Part shown: piece by piece, positions 4,114-55,200 of the stretch
How the letters are laid out: the number at the start of each line of letters is the position of its first letter
How positions within the stretch are numbered: the first letter of the stretch is position 1
From: Ianthella basta
Lineage: Eukaryota > Porifera > Demospongiae > Verongiida > Ianthellidae
Assembly (NCBI GenBank): GCA_964019415.1
Contig: OZ025875.1
Location: forward strand, 4,587,411 to 4,651,410
Reading direction: 5' to 3'
Length of the DNA stretch: 64,000 nt
Program-made: the position numbers and the translations under genes
Notes under the pieces: generated by a model
The model's input: only the letters and a program-made list of their open reading frames with translations
Told to the model about the DNA's origin: nothing
The model's database searches: none

Positions 4114-10242
<6,129 letters not shown>

Positions 10243-43211: not shown

Positions 43212-46200
43212 ATGGACGGTCTGTGGCACCAATACAAGGCAAACCCGTTTCATCTCATTGCTAGGCATGGCTCAAAGGCCAACATTCTCCAGGAAATCCT
43301 GAAGGTGAGCTAACCGAATGTAGTAAAATCGTGGCTGTACCAAACTCATTGTGCATAAGGTGGGTGCAAAGGTGGGGGGACATGCGTGTGCCCTCTACCA
43401 ACACCAATCAATGCAGTGGAGTATGTTGGCAATGACAGTAAGAACATGCCCATGGATATTTACATGTATGATGTTTAGCCATGACAGGACTATTATTACA
43501 TAAAAAGAATGAACATTTTCTACAAAAAATACGAAAGATGTAGGGCTGGCATAAAAAGTACAAAAACAAGGAAAGACTACTACACAGTGGAGCGTTCACC
43601 ATTGTCCCTACATTGAAGGGTGTTGCACCATATAGTACTACACTCTACTAGTTTTTTGTAGAAAAGTTTTATTCTTTCTAGTTTCTCCACTTTTTATGGA
43701 GTGTAAGCTCTGATATGATACATTGCCACAACTGCAGGACAGTTTTTATTCTGGAGCAGAACCGAAGTGGCAGCTAGAACTTAGATTCTGCGCAAACTCA
43801 GAAAGTCCACTGGAAGCCGGGGGGGGGGGGGGGGGGGGGGAGGGGGTTGGGCAAGGTCCTAGGACTGTCTTAAGACTGTCTTAGGGGTGACCTCCAGAAA
43901 CTGGAGATATGTATCCTTGATTGATTGATTGACTGATTGATTGATTATTATTAAGCCACATGCCCACAGGCACTAGGGCCAAACTGCCCTGTCAGGTGAA
44001 AAAGGAACAGCAAACATTATATATACACATTGTCAGTACTGTCAATTATTCGGTTTAGCAACAATCAGTCCGGCCAGGTACTTGGGAGGGGACATTTGCT
44101 GCTAGAATTGAGCAGTCCACATCTTCATGATGGCTTTCAATACTGACGCATGCTGGCATCCCTGGTCCAATATGCAGATCAGCTTGTCATCCTCTCCGAC
44201 ACTATCAAAATCATTGATTATTTGCCTCATGCACTGCAGGAGAGGTTGGCGTTCTGTGTCTCATGCATCACACTCCAACAACCAATGGGGCACATCCTCA
44301 GTCTTCCCTGATTGACACTCCTGACACCTTCTCTCCTCCCTCGGCAGCCTTTGCCATTGTCCACTCTCAATCATAAAGGGGGCTGTCCCACCTCTCATCA
44401 TCATCATCCGTCTCAGAGTCTTACTAGCTACATCCAAGCATCATGCTTCACTAACCTTTCTTTTAGCATGCGCAATGTTGCCAACTTAGGTTTGGTGCTA
44501 AGGTCACATGTCCATTCATCCTCAATCAACCTCTTTGCACCAGTCTCTAACATAACTTTGATTTCTACACTGGATAGGCCCCCGTACCTCCTCAGCTCCA
44601 ATATTCCCCCACTCAAATGACTTAAGACACTCCTGCAGCTTCATGGCCCTCCACACTCCATAGCTTCCACTGCAGCTACTCCTGCCCTCTTACAAGGGGT
44701 TAGACAGTATTCTAAATCAAAATAAAGTACATCTGACCCTTCAGAAAGGGTTGGTTCTCCAATACCAGCTTCACAACAGGGTTGAAAACCTTGCCGATGT
44801 TTTGACCAGATGCTCTGGTCTTCTTCAGGGCGACATCTACACATCTTCGTCCTGAAGAAGACCAGAGCATCTGGTCGAAACGTTGGCAAGGTTTTCAACC
44901 CTGTTGTGAAGCTGGCATTGGAGAACCAACCCTTTCTGATGCCTGAGCCAGCTGAGAAGCCCTCACTTCATCTGACCCTTGCTAACCAAGCAACTGGCAC
45001 AGCATCTGCTTCCATCAGCGATGATGCCTTAAGGTGACGTAGTCCCACACCAAAAACATGTGCAAAGCCCGTAGCTGGATCTGGCTCAATCCCTCTGACT
45101 TGTGGTGGCAGCCCCAAACCTCAACTTCATACTTTAACACAGATTCCACCAAGGACTGCAACAATTGTAGAAAGGATCTGCCATTCATTCCTCCAACTGA
45201 CTCGCAGCACCTCAATCCGTAACCATGCGCCCAAAGCCTGTGAACCTAGCTTCATCCTATGCTCTACCATCCCAGAACAGTCTAGGAACTCATCTATCAC
45301 ACATTTAAATACTCATGAGAGGAAACCCAAGCGATTTCATCCATACCAATCTTGAAGGTAGCTCCTCATCTGTCCACTCGAGCAGCTAAAGATCTGGAGG
45401 TTGCTGGTGCTGGTCCGGATCACTGCCATTTACCCCTTCCCCCCTTCATTCCTTACCACGTGTAGTTCCAAACGCTGTCTTTCAATAGAGAAGAGAGAGC
45501 TTGGTCCTTGCAACCTCTGCCCCTACAAAAGCCACCTTGCTCATCAGCCAATAGCTCTTTAGCTTTTAAAAGTCAGCCAGCTGGTTGTTCAAGACCATAC
45601 ACATGATCTTTCCAACTAAGGATGTCATGGAGATACCTCTGAAGTTGCTGGTGTCACAGGCTCCCTTCACCCTCCCCTTAGGAATTGGCACAGTGATAGA
45701 ACGTTTCCAGAAGGAGGGGACAACTCCAAACTTCCAGCAAGCATTAGACAAATGCACCCACACATCCCTTAAAGGGCCACTGACATGTTTGCATGATTTT
45801 GTAGAGAACCACTGGAAACTACGCAAAATCGCATTGAAAGTTATCTGCGTGCCTTCGTTTGGCAGAAAATTGCTCGCTTCCAGTAAATTCATCTCTGAAT
45901 TCCGCCACTTTGGGCTGTGATGTCACAGTAGTCACATAATCTTGATTCAGGACAAACCCGCAGAACCTTTCTGTAACTGTTCTTCTGTTTCGTCTGAAGG
46001 GGGGGGAAGGGGGGGTAGGGTTAGGGTTCGTACTACAGAAAAGGTCCTTCTGTCTTCTACCGTTTTTTTAATAGACAGAGCAGTAATATTGTATGTGCCC
46101 ATGTCATACTATGCGCACAGATTGGTGGGGTCATTGCCTTCTTCTAGGGGCTCACAACATCCACCCTCATGATGCTGTGTACAAACAACACAGAGTATAT

Positions 46201-49200: not shown

Positions 49201-52200
49201 TGTTTCATTTGCATAGGTAGTTTATTAGTCAGTTTATTTTATAATTTCTTCACCAGTATGCTGCATGACTTTGATTTCATTGTGTCAGTAAAGACTAATA
49301 GTGCATTTTCTGAGTCTATTGCATAATGTACCTTGAAATCCATGCTGAGCTCAGAGATTTACAGCTGACACTGACATTACCATTTATGTAGCTTTGCATT
49401 GAACACAGTGTGTCACGGTATGTGGTTTGGTAGTATAATATGTTGCTCTTTTTGGCAGGGTAACAGATGCTGTGACAGCATTGATTCAAGCTTTACAACA
49501 GCAAATGGAAAGTCCCTTTCTTAGCCACGTCTTTGCACAACAGGTATGCCTATGCTACTGTTCTTGTATGTAAGTGGACTTCAATAAAGGCAGCTTTCTT
49601 TGTAATATCTTGTTCCTTTAGTTGGCTGTGACGCTCACCACAGTTACTGTGGAACAAGGCCATGACTTGGTATGTTCATGTAGTAGTTGCATATGTGTGT
49701 TACTATTGTATTATGCATACGTAGTTATTCTGCAGTGTCTTAATGTGACATAACAGAGACTGCTATGTGGGTAATTATTGTACAAATTGGTTCAGTGCCT
49801 GTATGCTATACACTACATCCTTGTGCAGTAATTAAATCTAAAAGTGGCTATGCTACAGCAGAAATGAAGAAAGTAACTCAGTCAGTTATGATTACAGGAT
49901 AGTGTCATACTTATTATCATATTGATTGTGGCTGTAATTGTATTCCTTGCATTCGACATGAAGTTTCAATGTTCTTCCTTACACTGATATGAAATTCTTG
50001 AGCAAGGCACAACTGTTAATGATCAATCAAAAGCAGAACGTTTCGACCTGAAGATCTTTGTCAACTGCATACAGGATCCTGTTCACAGTTGACCTGAGTT
50101 TATAAGGCTTGATGGGACCGTTTAACCATTAAGGATTCAATAATAATTGCCAAGCCGAAAGGCGAGGCAAGTAATCATGATGCGTAGTCATCCCCCGTTT
50201 GTATGTACTAGCAGAGAAGGGCGCCTTTGGTGCCCTCCTCTGCTCTGGCGCCCAACGCAGGTACTTCCGATGTCAGTGCTTCTGATGCAAAGCACTTCCA
50301 AACCTGGCTACTGAGTGATAGCTATAGACGCTGCAGTTGCAGTTAGCTATAGAGTTGCACGCAGCTGACTCCTCGTCCACCATGAATCACCTTCTGCAAG
50401 GTCAAGCATCTTGTATTGCCCACCAAATTAAACAGAACTGACTCATGATGGCCCTTTGAGCTGATTCTTGGTTGTTCTCTTGAGTTGACTCCTGGTTGGT
50501 CCTTTGAGCTGACTCCCCTCGAGCTGGCTCCTGCTTTTCCCCTGGTGCTGACTCCTGTGAGTGAAGGTTGAGTGATGGTCTTGGAGTTCTGACAGTTGTC
50601 GTCGGTTGCTAAGAGCTCTCATCATCCCTGAATGTCTTGACTTCTTGGTTAGTAGTGTTGCCACGATATAGGAAAATATGTATCACGATTATTGTAGGTT
50701 TGTATCACGATATATTGTGTATCACGATATATTAATGAACAATTGGCACAGTGCTCAGATATAAGCCAAACACATAGAGTAATGCAGCGAGCGTTAAAGC
50801 AAACAGGTGAGGTACATGCATGCATGGTTTTCCAGCTGTTACTCTGGATTTTCAAAAAGAAAGATCAGTTGGTCAGCATGCTCAGAAGTGAGCCGATTAC
50901 GCTTGTCAGTGATGACATTCACTGTCGTGCTGAATAGGCGCTCTGATGGAACACTGGTAGCCACGAATGAAAACATTCTTTGCACAAGCTTGCTCATTAA
51001 AGGATAGAGTTCCTTACGGCTGCTCCACCATGCAAGAGGATCTGAGTCTAGATCAGGTGGTGATTCAGCTTTGTACATGTCTAGCTCTTTCTGCACCTTG
51101 TCTGAATGTAATGGCAAATGTTGCTGAGTGTGTGACTCAAACAACTCTCCGATGATCTTTTCCACTGGACCTTTCTTCTTCTTCGATGGTGGTTCTCCTT
51201 CTATCACTTCCTCGACTTCTGGTGGGTCTTCCTTCTCTGTCTCTTCCATGACTAGAAGCTCATCCTGCACTTCATCAATGATTCTTCTTCGGGTAAGCTG
51301 ATCAAGAAAGGGGAGTTCCTTGTATCTAGGATCCAGGAATGTGGTAATATTAAGGATCCTTGCCACAGATGGGGTGCTGTAGCGTTCCTGCAAATCCCTC
51401 TTGATGTTTAGCTTCACCTCCTTCGCAACCACCGTGTCGTTCTCTTTGACTTCGAGCGTCCTGTTGACCAGCTTATACAAAAGTGGCTTGACTGTGCTCA
51501 GTGTTGGGTAACTTACTGCACCCATTGCTTCTGTAGCTTGCTGGAATGGCTTCAGGATGTCGACCAGCACCTCAATTACTGACCACTCCTCTCCTTCTGG
51601 CATCAAGTGCCTTACTTTCCCATCCATTAGCACAGCAGCAATGGGTGCCTGCTGCTCCATCAGCCTCTCTAGCATGGCCAGTGTGCTTCCCCAACGTGTC
51701 ACACAGTCTTGGATGAGCATGTGTTGGGGTAGCTGGAGCATTTCCTGCTTTTCTCGTAGCTTGTACGTTTCCTTGGTGGACTTCTTAAAATGAGTAACCA
51801 GTTTCTTGCAGCGACCAAGAACTCGCTGAACTCTTGTCACACCAAGGCCTCTACCAATAGAGAGCTGCAGCGTGTGAGCCACACATGGAAAGTGCTCGAT
51901 TCCCATCAGTCGAAAGGCATTGACCATATTGCTAGCATTGTCCGTAACGCCTCCACACACCTTTCCTGCAATTTTCCAATCCTCAAACATGGAAGAAAGG
52001 ACATCCTTTAGTGAGCTAGCATCGTGATCTTGCGGAATTTCAAGTGTCTGTAGACACTTGCTGTGATGCTTGAAATCACTGTCGACAAAGTGTGCAGTTA
52101 GTGATATGTAGGCACGCTGCTGGTGCAGTGAGGTCCACAGATCAGTTGTAACAGCACAGGTCTCGACTGCTGCTAGCTGCTTTTCAATGGCAGCTCTAGT

Positions 52201-55200
52201 TAAGCGATACTTAGCTGGTATCACTGTGTTAGTGAAGTACGTGCGGTGTGGCAAGTTAAATCTAGGCTCAGCTAACTGCAACAAGCGCCTGAATGCTGGT
52301 TCATCAACCACACTCAAAGGCTGCAAGCCTTGGCAAATGAAATCGGCTGTGGCATCGACCAGCTGCTTGTGCTTCGCACTTTTGTTCGAAAACGGAGTGG
52401 ATTTCGCGAGCGTTCCACTGATAGTAAGCTGTGTCAACGTTGTCTTCACCGCGGAGGCTCTGCTTGGTCCAGGTTGATCGCCGCTGTCCTGTTGCTGGAG
52501 CGCGAGGTACTCCTGTGCGTGGCACCGCTGAAGATGGAACTTCAGGTTGGTGGTGTTGCCTGAGTAAGCGACAACAGCCTGACATAGTCGGCAAATGGTC
52601 TTCTTCTTGTCTGTAATCCTGCCTTTATCATCAGCGGGAAAACCGAAGTGCTTCCAGATAGCGCTCTTAGTCTAGAAGTTGGGTTTCACGATGAGGTCAA
52701 ATTCGCTCGCAGTCGACATCTCTCTACACTGACAGAAGGTAAGCTAACACTGGCCTGCAATAGAGTATCTACTACCGTTTTAGATAGTCTATAGTGTTAG
52801 GTGTTAGCTTCCCTACTGCACTAGTCAGCAGAGATTAGCCCTTCTGCACCAGTCAGCAGAGATTAGGCCAATATCACGACAGGAAGAACACTGCTTTTGT
52901 ATCGCGATATTGTGTATATATCGCGATATATTGTGTATCGCGATTATCGTGGCAACACTATTGGTTAGTCCGGTGCTGCCCTTAATGTTCGGCATATGCG
53001 CACTGCAACGGTTGCAAATTGCTTTGTTTGGAAGAAACATATTACGATGACGTCATGAGATTATTGCGCAAGCCTAAAACCCGCATAACCTGTGCCCATC
53101 CTTTCGCCATCGAGCCGCTTTCACTCGCGTAAGACGGAGCTATTCGCTATATAGCTTATGTCACTCACAGCCTTCTACATTGTGCTAAGACGACAGCAAA
53201 GAAGCCGTCACACCATCTCCCCAGGAGGAGTTTTGTAACAAAGGAATTAGCTGCGAATTCCGCAATCTACTTCGCTTTCCTCTGTAAAACAAAAACGGCG
53301 TCCTATAGTAACGTATGGTGAGTTGGCGCAAAACCTTCATTTCGCACGTTTTCGCAGGAAAACCCAGCCGAAGACACCCTCCGGATAGCGCTTTCACATT
53401 AGGACCGCGTTTTCTACGAACCCTCCGCACGGTTCCGGAGATTAGTGTGCACAAAAAATCGGCCTAGCTCCATTATAATAAGATGTATATATGTATATCC
53501 GTCCCAGTCAACCTGAGACACATAGATTGCACAATAGCCTGGTGTTCTCAGCAGGAGCTCACAACAACAAAAGCTCTACTCGGCCACCATTGGCCACAAA
53601 ACTGCTCAACACTCCACTTCATTGCTGCACGCTGGGTTCAGATTGTTGCTAACGTCGCCCATTGCTCCAGCGAGGGCTACACGCCTGTTGGTGATTCGGC
53701 CCTGTTGGCAGACATCATTTGCCTTGCATGGCTCGGAACACATCCACTGTTCCCTTGGGTGAAGCGCAAATGCGCACTGTATTAGCTAAGCAGGGACGGG
53801 CTTCCCTGTGCAGCTCCAAATATATGTAGGTGCCAATTGCACAGCATGCACACTCTAGCTAAAAGAGTACTGTGCAACACTGTAGGGTGAAGGAGTCCAA
53901 CCAAATGAACACTGAAATGCAAGTGGAGAAGAGGAACAAGTAGAGGGGAATAGACACGAGAGGATAAGTATGGAAGAAGTGTGCTCAAGCATCTGGAGAC
54001 TGAAGAATGGGAAAGCGCCCTGAGTATGTGGGGTCACTGGAGAAATGCTTAAGGCAGGTGGAGAGGTAGTGGTAGAGTGGCTGCACAAGATCATAGACCT
54101 GACATGGAGGAGTGGGAGTGTTCCAGTGGACTGGCAGGGCACTGATTGTCCCAATCCGTAAGAAAGGAAGCAGAACCCAATGCAAGAATTGCTGTGGTAT
54201 CAGCTTGCTGAGCATACCTGGCAAGGTGTATGCCAGTGTGTTGGAGACGAGAATGAGACAATCACTGAAGGAAAAGTGCTGGAAGAGCAGGGGGCTTTCT
54301 GGAGGGGAAGGAGCTGTGTAGACTAGTTGTTTACTGCCAGGCAGTAAGGAGAGAAGATCATTGAAAAGAACAAGTAAATGCTGATGGTTTGCGTGGACTT
54401 AGAAAAAGCATATGACAGGGTAGACAAGGAACTACTGTGGAGAGTGCTGAGGGCACATGGAGTGAATGGTGAACTGATAAGAGCAGTGAGGTCACTATAC
54501 GATGATGGTAAGGCGAGTGTCAGGGTTTGAGGTGAGAAATCAGACTGGCTTGGAGTAGGGCAAGGAGTGAGACAGGGATGCACTATGCCACCATGGCTAT
54601 TAACATCTTTTTAGACAACATTGTGAGAGAGGCGAAGTAGAAGTTTGAAGGAAGGGTTAAGATTGAAACAGGCAAGATACAACTTCTTTCATTTGCTGAT
54701 GACCTAATGTTAATGACAGAAAGAGATGAGGATGCAGAAAGAAATGTGAAGGTGCTTAATGAAGTGATGATGAAATGGAGAATGACAATCAATTGGGGAA
54801 AGACAAAGGTAATGGTGGTGAAGAGAGGAGGAGGCACAAGCAGCTTTACAGTGAATGGGGTGGAGAAAATGTGAAGACAATGAAGTACCTGGGAGCCATG
54901 TTGGATGAGGGATCATGTGAAGCAGAGGTAGACCACAGAATAGGTGCAGCATCCAAAGTGATTGGAGCCACGAGAAAAGAGGTAATTGATCAAAGAGAAC
55001 TGAGCAAGTCATCAAAACTTAGAGTGATCAGTGTCTGTGTGAACTACATGGTATCAATGTTGCTAGAAAGTTTCAGAAGTCTAACTTAAAGGATGATTGA
55101 AAAAGAAGTAATAAAATTCTGTTAAGTGGCAATCATGACCTAGAGTTATTGTGCAAGCACAAAAATGCTCATGAAAGGTTGCCCTGGGTCCTTCTCACTT

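Follow-up and report, generated by a model that had tools for sequence, protein, structure and literature searches.

What is the palindromic insert at positions 44742-44968 of a 64,000-nucleotide stretch of the Ianthella basta genome, and how did it come to carry two hammerhead-like cores? The stretch, referred to throughout as the window, covers positions 4,587,411 to 4,651,410 of contig OZ025875.1. A sequence-only reading had described a fold-back inserted in a long interspersed nuclear element (LINE), and had proposed that it was a mobile unit in its own right with a potential ribozyme at each end; that interpretation as a whole is partly supported. The insert is not an independent mobile unit; an autonomous Penelope-like element (PLE) produced it, as one of its short insertions. 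We propose, with a probability of roughly 0.84, that it arose by two-sided target-primed reverse transcription (RT) carried out by a PLE with a GIY-YIG endonuclease. In addition, some sister copies seem to record the point at which the element's own hammerhead ribozyme cuts its RNA.

The insert is 227 bp long and lies between two copies of CATCTGACCCTT (44730-44741 and 44969-44980), as expected from the 12-bp target-site duplication that had been claimed. The repeat finder delimits arms of 93 nt each (44741-44833 and 44847-44939) that are 95% complementary, and the folding energy of -184.8 kcal/mol compares with a mean of -67.9 (standard deviation 5.2) in shuffled sequences (z -22; none of 200 shuffles equal), confirming a fold-back with paired arms. 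The element runs about 29 nt beyond the right arm, and we call this extension the tail. The right arm reads CTGAAGA, one extra A, GACCAGA-GCA-TCTGGTC (a 7-bp stem II with a GCA loop) and GAAAC; the left arm has the same core order but AAAAC for GAAAC. The sequence-only reading had recognized this order in both arms without mentioning the extra A before stem II. It had placed a potential ribozyme at each end of the unit; the cores instead lie on either side of the palindrome's centre and face outward. The features are as follows, where plus-signed coordinates such as +43 are positions on a common reference sequence of the element's end region.

44730-44741, no strand: left target-site duplication, CATCTGACCCTT; its final T may belong to the element (copies begin TCAGAAAGGG)
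44742-44833, minus strand: tailless left arm, antisense copy of the PLE RNA between about +96, at putative RT start site 1, and about +5
44799-44828, minus strand: left-arm hammerhead-like core, made up of CTGAAGA, the extra A, stem II and AAAAC (GAAAC in most copies)
44834-44842, no strand: joint of the arms, 9 nt of filler (CATCTACAC); most copies have differing joints
44843-44939, plus strand: right arm, sense-orientation copy of the PLE RNA from +1 (putative RNA 5' end) to about +97
44852-44884, plus strand: minimal type I hammerhead core, assigned from sequence, family comparison and the inner-end peak; its parts are CTGAAGA (44852-44858), the extra A (44859), stem II (44860-44876), GAAA (44877-44880) and CGTT (44881-44884)
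Between 44884 and 44885 (+42/+43), plus strand: predicted hammerhead cut
44940-44968, plus strand: tail, the sequence between the two putative RT start sites, on one arm only
44969-44980, no strand: right target-site duplication, CATCTGACCCTT

How often does this arrangement occur, and what varies among its copies? A search with the window sequence returned the window itself and 39 other places at 89-95% identity (the best 40 of 1261 candidates), each of which matches on both strands. An 18-nt tail motif, with one mismatch allowed, occurs 1306 times in the 209-Mb genome, and its reversed control 0 times; related copies thus abound. A flanking repeat of at least 8 nt accompanies 37 of the 40 aligned copies (39 fetched loci plus the window), among which L044 and L045 share one duplication and the repeat of L020 lies within a local tandem repeat. 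Because the outer ends of these 40 copies hardly vary, the tailless side being short by 0-5 nt, and the central joints mostly differ, the palindrome is mostly remade at each insertion. A second sample was selected by the tail and comprises 90 of the 100 tail places listed on contig C1; 10844968, 13422951, 14643781, 5368751 (the other end of L114) and six more places lie outside it. Three diverged places (L165-L167, 73% identical to the reference) were removed before the upstream analysis of the remaining 87 stretches, and the further removal of 8 duplicate rows left 79 rows, 58 of them fold-back. L065/L066 and L072/L073 are the two ends of single insertions, so the 79 rows represent at most 77 insertions, and fold-backs account for 56 of these; the duplication is 10-15 nt long in 47 of the 58 fold-back rows. 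L165-L167 are themselves three near-identical places at which the tail motif sits on a diverged relative, perhaps an older PLE subfamily sharing the tail. The same insertions also recur on contig C1 at about 4.39-4.42, 5.37-5.40 and 5.46-5.47 Mb (L072/L114, L074/L115/L117 and L075/L116/L118), which suggests segmental duplications.

Which element supplied the arms? In a long copy, L054, the 3' end of a reverse transcriptase open reading frame (ORF) lies upstream of the arm (RVT_1, E 9e-7, 29.2 bits, just under the cut-off of 29.6). By eye, this ORF ends in a GIY-YIG-like segment, GEIYIGETLRRLETRMKEH, at which the Pfam scan did not report PF01541; its C-terminus we take to be PLE-like. The GIY-YIG profile gave 55 matches above the cut-off at other loci (150 scored), and neighbouring pairs within 5 kb are head to head in 13 of 15 cases, tail to tail in none and in the same direction in two. 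These loci were considered as autonomous copies of the present element and rejected as such: among 30 loci, L104 alone contains part of its end region. Long inverted copies arranged head to head are formed by other PLE families (L087/L088, L106), and at C18:4962903/4965297 and at L106 (contig C1) one end appears by eye to be tailed and the other tailless.

A pseudo-long terminal repeat (pLTR), a tail, an inverted arrangement and a target-site duplication, the features by which PLEs are recognized, are all present. The papers cited here and below are drawn on in excerpt. In the rotifer Adineta vaga, Penelope elements carry inverted pLTRs that are said to be typical also of flies and fish, and an adjacent inverted pLTR with an optional 31-bp tail is called typical of PLEs (PMC3846280); contrary to what had been supposed, an inverted form is thus nothing unusual among PLEs. 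The A. vaga elements resemble those described here in their ORF for reverse transcriptase and endonuclease, their head-to-head inverted pLTR with a TATA box, the 31-bp tail on one inverted pLTR, and palindromes and microhomology at the joints, and their target duplications are 8-10 bp long (PMC3846280). Thus, inverted pLTRs, the tail, target duplications and microhomology joints are already known in PLEs. Judged against the same excerpts, three traits set the sponge element apart from that of A. vaga: the prevalence of short fold-backs (the 56 of at most 77 sampled insertions), the near-strict restriction of the tail to one arm, and joints that peak at two discrete positions, which we read as RNA 5' ends.

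Long inverted repeats, a high copy number and a target-site duplication are also what one would expect of a self-propagating fold-back DNA transposon or a miniature inverted-repeat transposable element unrelated to PLEs. The duplication varies in length rather than being fixed, most joints differ among copies, the arms are made unequal by the tail and so lack matching termini, and a long copy with reverse transcriptase and a GIY-YIG-like segment has the same ends; we regard the probability of this origin as negligible. Similarly, a hammerhead core within a short, highly repeated unit, together with the recurrence of some joints at different places, could suggest a non-autonomous retrozyme or a unit like a short interspersed nuclear element, moving as a fold-back. 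Retrozymes have tandem direct hammerheads bounding a circular RNA unit, whereas here there is one core per arm in inverted order; the short fold-backs lack the TATA box, which is located upstream of the centre; and the differing joints imply that the centre is remade. Such a unit is very improbable.

What, then, do the outer ends reveal about the origin of the two arms as PLE products? In the C1 sample the outer end of the minus arm falls at +92 to +105 in 49 of the 58 rows and further in in 5. A set chosen blind to the tail, by patterns inside the arms, was also fetched (39 of 47 distinct palindromes from two overlapping searches, 6 in both; L064, L123 and L145, on C1, and five more palindromes are outside it). 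Exactly one arm is tailed in 39 of these 39 fold-backs (38 insertions, L191 and L192 being one), and a duplication of at least 8 nt is found in 37. The one-tail pattern is near-strict. The outer ends lie at two sites about 31 nt apart, a layout like that of the two RT start sites of PAc, a Poseidon PLE of Anolis carolinensis. In vitro, PAc cuts and extends both target strands, and its RT begins at two adjacent internal start sites, the tail being the sequence between them (PMC11167929). The layout seen here agrees closely with two start sites that define the tail and with the extension of both strands (PMC11167929).

The same observations bear on self-priming, in which one cDNA (complementary DNA), or an antisense RNA as proposed for A. 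vaga, would fold back and be copied into the second arm. This has been proposed for PLEs in a paper whose excerpted text leaves a sense template open (PMC3846280), and it would account for palindromic joints and for variants common to both arms. An arm copied in this way should carry the tail too and would require a loop, yet one tail is found in every fold-back of the tail-blind set; moreover, many joints have no loop, for example GAAGATCTTC. An antisense template also fails to account for the inner stop at +43, described below, which sits at a predicted cut that is possible in the sense RNA only. We consider self-priming quite unlikely.

We therefore return to two-sided target-primed RT, for which we infer the enzyme and the following order of steps. 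The endonuclease would make staggered cuts in the two target strands, about 12 nt apart, so that each side is left with a 3' overhang; such overhangs at both ends, and hence two primers, are implied by the duplications. Each 3' end would prime antisense cDNA on sense PLE RNA, one cDNA starting at site 1 (about +97) and the other at site 2 (about +128), the latter yielding the tail. Both cDNAs would extend toward the RNA 5' end and join head to head through microhomology or a short filler, and gap repair would then create the target duplication. The RNA 5' end would usually be a TATA-driven start (+1) and, in a minority, the hammerhead cut (+43). In LINE-1 twin priming, too, both target strands prime cDNA; the twin-primed segments, however, are not known to copy the same RNA region, as both arms do here. 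The arms of one insertion share source variants (22 of 23 at +78, compared with 24% in shuffles), including rare ones (9 of 60 versus 0.7% in shuffles), and they tend to share the state of their 5' end: 4 of 31 joints that pair a +1 arm with a truncated one end at +42 to +44, against 20 of 39 doubly truncated palindromes with the further arm at +43. These observations point to one RNA, or two RNAs of one source processed together, although successive master copies could be an alternative cause of the shared +78 base. The shared-variant analysis used the 94 of 125 copies in which both arms were usable; like that of core conservation below, it left out L165-L167, L147 and L021 and retained segmental duplicates.

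The inner ends fall into two peaks. In the C1 sample the inner end is at +1/+2 in 23 of the 79 rows for the plus arm and in 24 of the 58 rows for the minus arm. Among the matches listed for long-arm palindromes, 50 of 90, the further-reaching arm ends within 3 bases of +1 in 50 of 50, and of 35 palindromes probing +1 to +27, 28 have this end between +1 and +5 and 7 between +8 and +14. A TATA box, TATAAATA, begins at -30 in long copies, and for this reason +1 is read as the transcription start. The second peak emerges in doubly truncated palindromes (39 places), in which the further arm ends at exactly +43 in 20, at +44 in 5 and at +45 to +51 in 12, and reaches past +43 in only 2. Tested against an even distribution over 27 positions, this gives a nominal p of about 1e-18, or about 3e-18 with duplicates removed (19 of 36, leaving out a shared insertion and two more rows that are identical in their joint and were assumed to be duplicates); the even distribution is a crude null, and symmetric joints are visible to the search pattern only down to about +39. 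Of the 14 palindromes given by another pattern (6 common to the first 39; counts read by eye), 9 have the two arms ending precisely at +43; in 2, one of the arms runs on by 1-2 bases, and 3 go distinctly further. Position +43 is the first base after the predicted hammerhead cut.

Could +43 instead be a site at which RT pauses, or one preferred by end joining? Microhomology shapes many joints, joints between a +1 arm and a truncated arm show no clear +43 peak, the null behind the p value is crude, and cleavage by the ribozyme is a prediction. Conversely, a pausing enzyme would be expected to stop immediately 3' of one of the two stems, at about +50 for stem I or +35 for stem II, rather than at the cut; exact +43/+43 joints contain fillers of 1-28 nt, for which microhomology is not required; and in an independent family, PLE family 3, the only palindrome from a matching search, which has a 12-nt duplication and one tail, has its further arm at that family's own predicted cut (by eye, n = 1). 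On balance pausing or end joining seems unlikely, if deserving of attention, and we favour a template cut by the ribozyme.

Is the core in fact a hammerhead? A covariance search, as the sequence-only reading had suggested, found no hammerhead among Rfam models: the whole 64-kb window gave 0 matches at gathering scores, and 44500-45200 at E<=10 gave 8 (7 microRNA-precursor models and 1 bacterial small RNA), all below gathering scores. Rfam hammerhead models expect helix III. The hammerheads of PLEs and Terminons are of minimal type I, without helix III and perhaps dimeric (PMC7761336, PMC6155905), and it is this minimal kind that family comparison and the inner-end peak bear out here, with CUGANGA, GAAA and pairing in stems I and II. 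Likewise, the core described here has no helix III, and its self-complementary ACGU could pair between two copies such that a dimer could supply that helix; it differs from the PLE/Terminon cores of these excerpts in the extra A after CUGANGA and in a genomic footprint that we read as cutting. In PAc, stems I and II lie at the start of the ORF and the cut falls 26 bp after the start codon at stem II (PMC11167929); the corresponding distance from the same point is 25-26 nt here.

CTGANGA followed by the extra A, a paired stem II and GAAACGTC occurs in 18 of the 30 GIY-YIG loci (22 of 26 matches) and in none of five shuffle sets. The remaining 4 matches come from L098, a tandem-like repeat that looks unrelated to the hammerhead and in which CTGATGAGGAGTGGGATTCTCCGAAAA appears four times at spacings of about 430-460 bp. 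By our own grouping, the window's family and the GIY-YIG loci form four PLE families that share the core, with 3, 4, 5 and 4 pairs, respectively, in stem I and 4-7 pairs in stem II. Stem I of family 1 does not pair with the partner strand of any other family, while families 2-4, which are mutually similar, cross-pair in 4 of 6 combinations (G-T allowed). Stem I changes between families in ways that preserve pairing.

A number of observations weigh against this account. The start at +1 rests on the TATA box. The tail-selected sample comes from a single contig, and because 60 of the 90 stretches extend no more than about 450 bases upstream, long fold-backs may be missed; in the same sample a second tail (+127) is present in 4 rows, representing at least two of the 56 insertions. 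When a +1 arm is joined to a truncated arm, only 4 of 31 ends (our own reading) lie at +42 to +44, and the search for small palindromes in family 2 was empty. Among family 1 copies the core is no better kept than its neighbours, non-CpG change being 0.95% in the core (9 positions) and 0.80% elsewhere (70 positions); the sequence-only reading had counted on core conservation, but its lack is uninformative because it is expected of dead insertions. Finally, the excerpted anole study describes in vitro RT starts that are equal on both strands, in contrast to the arms here, finds that ribozyme activity is not needed, and reports no cellular reads ending at the ribozyme site, where we see the +43 footprint (PMC11167929).

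We tentatively go one step further, at slightly worse than even odds: two-strand, two-site priming may be the normal first step of this PLE, with each target strand tied to its own start site (one to site 1, the other to site 2), whether the template is a single RNA or a pair of RNAs kept together. Ribozyme-cut templates would be cut together, by a dimeric hammerhead or on a single shared RNA, and the ribozyme would set the length of the cDNA.

The sequence that received the insert is a dispersed repeat. When the flanks 44640-44741 and 44981-45060 are joined without the insert, all 40 scored places (56 candidates) match at 83-89% and are insertion-free, giving at least 40 empty-site copies. 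A repeat therefore surrounds the insert as had been proposed, but its identity as a LINE was not confirmed: three short flank pieces gave no Pfam match, and there was no reverse transcriptase among the PDB matches for one of them. A LINE-like reverse transcriptase motif can be read by eye at 45569-45922 on the minus strand. Elsewhere in the window, a 536-residue open frame at 50839-52449 (minus strand) contains a hAT dimerisation domain (PF05699, E 5.1e-19), its product being a hAT-type transposase or a domesticated relative, and a long GTGTGT-type repeat at 7883-8485 (plus strand) yields a Cys/Val-rich frame, apparently a spurious one.

According to the excerpts consulted (PMC7761336, PMC3846280, PMC11167929), open questions about PLEs include their mode of insertion, the reason for their inverted pLTRs and tail, and whether cleavage by their tiny hammerheads takes place in living cells; one of these excerpts calls the in vivo activity and role of these hammerheads still a mystery (PMC7761336). 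In the open literature searched, with subscription papers mostly outside the search, neither a footprint of ribozyme cutting in insertions of PLEs nor a one-tail rule turned up. The approximately 1300 tails in the I. basta genome amount to hundreds of recorded end points. If our account is true, these palindromes preserve a fossil record of both-strand priming, and the +43 peak is evidence for cutting of the template RNA by a ribozyme in vivo; a PLE for which an in vitro system already exists could serve to test both claims.
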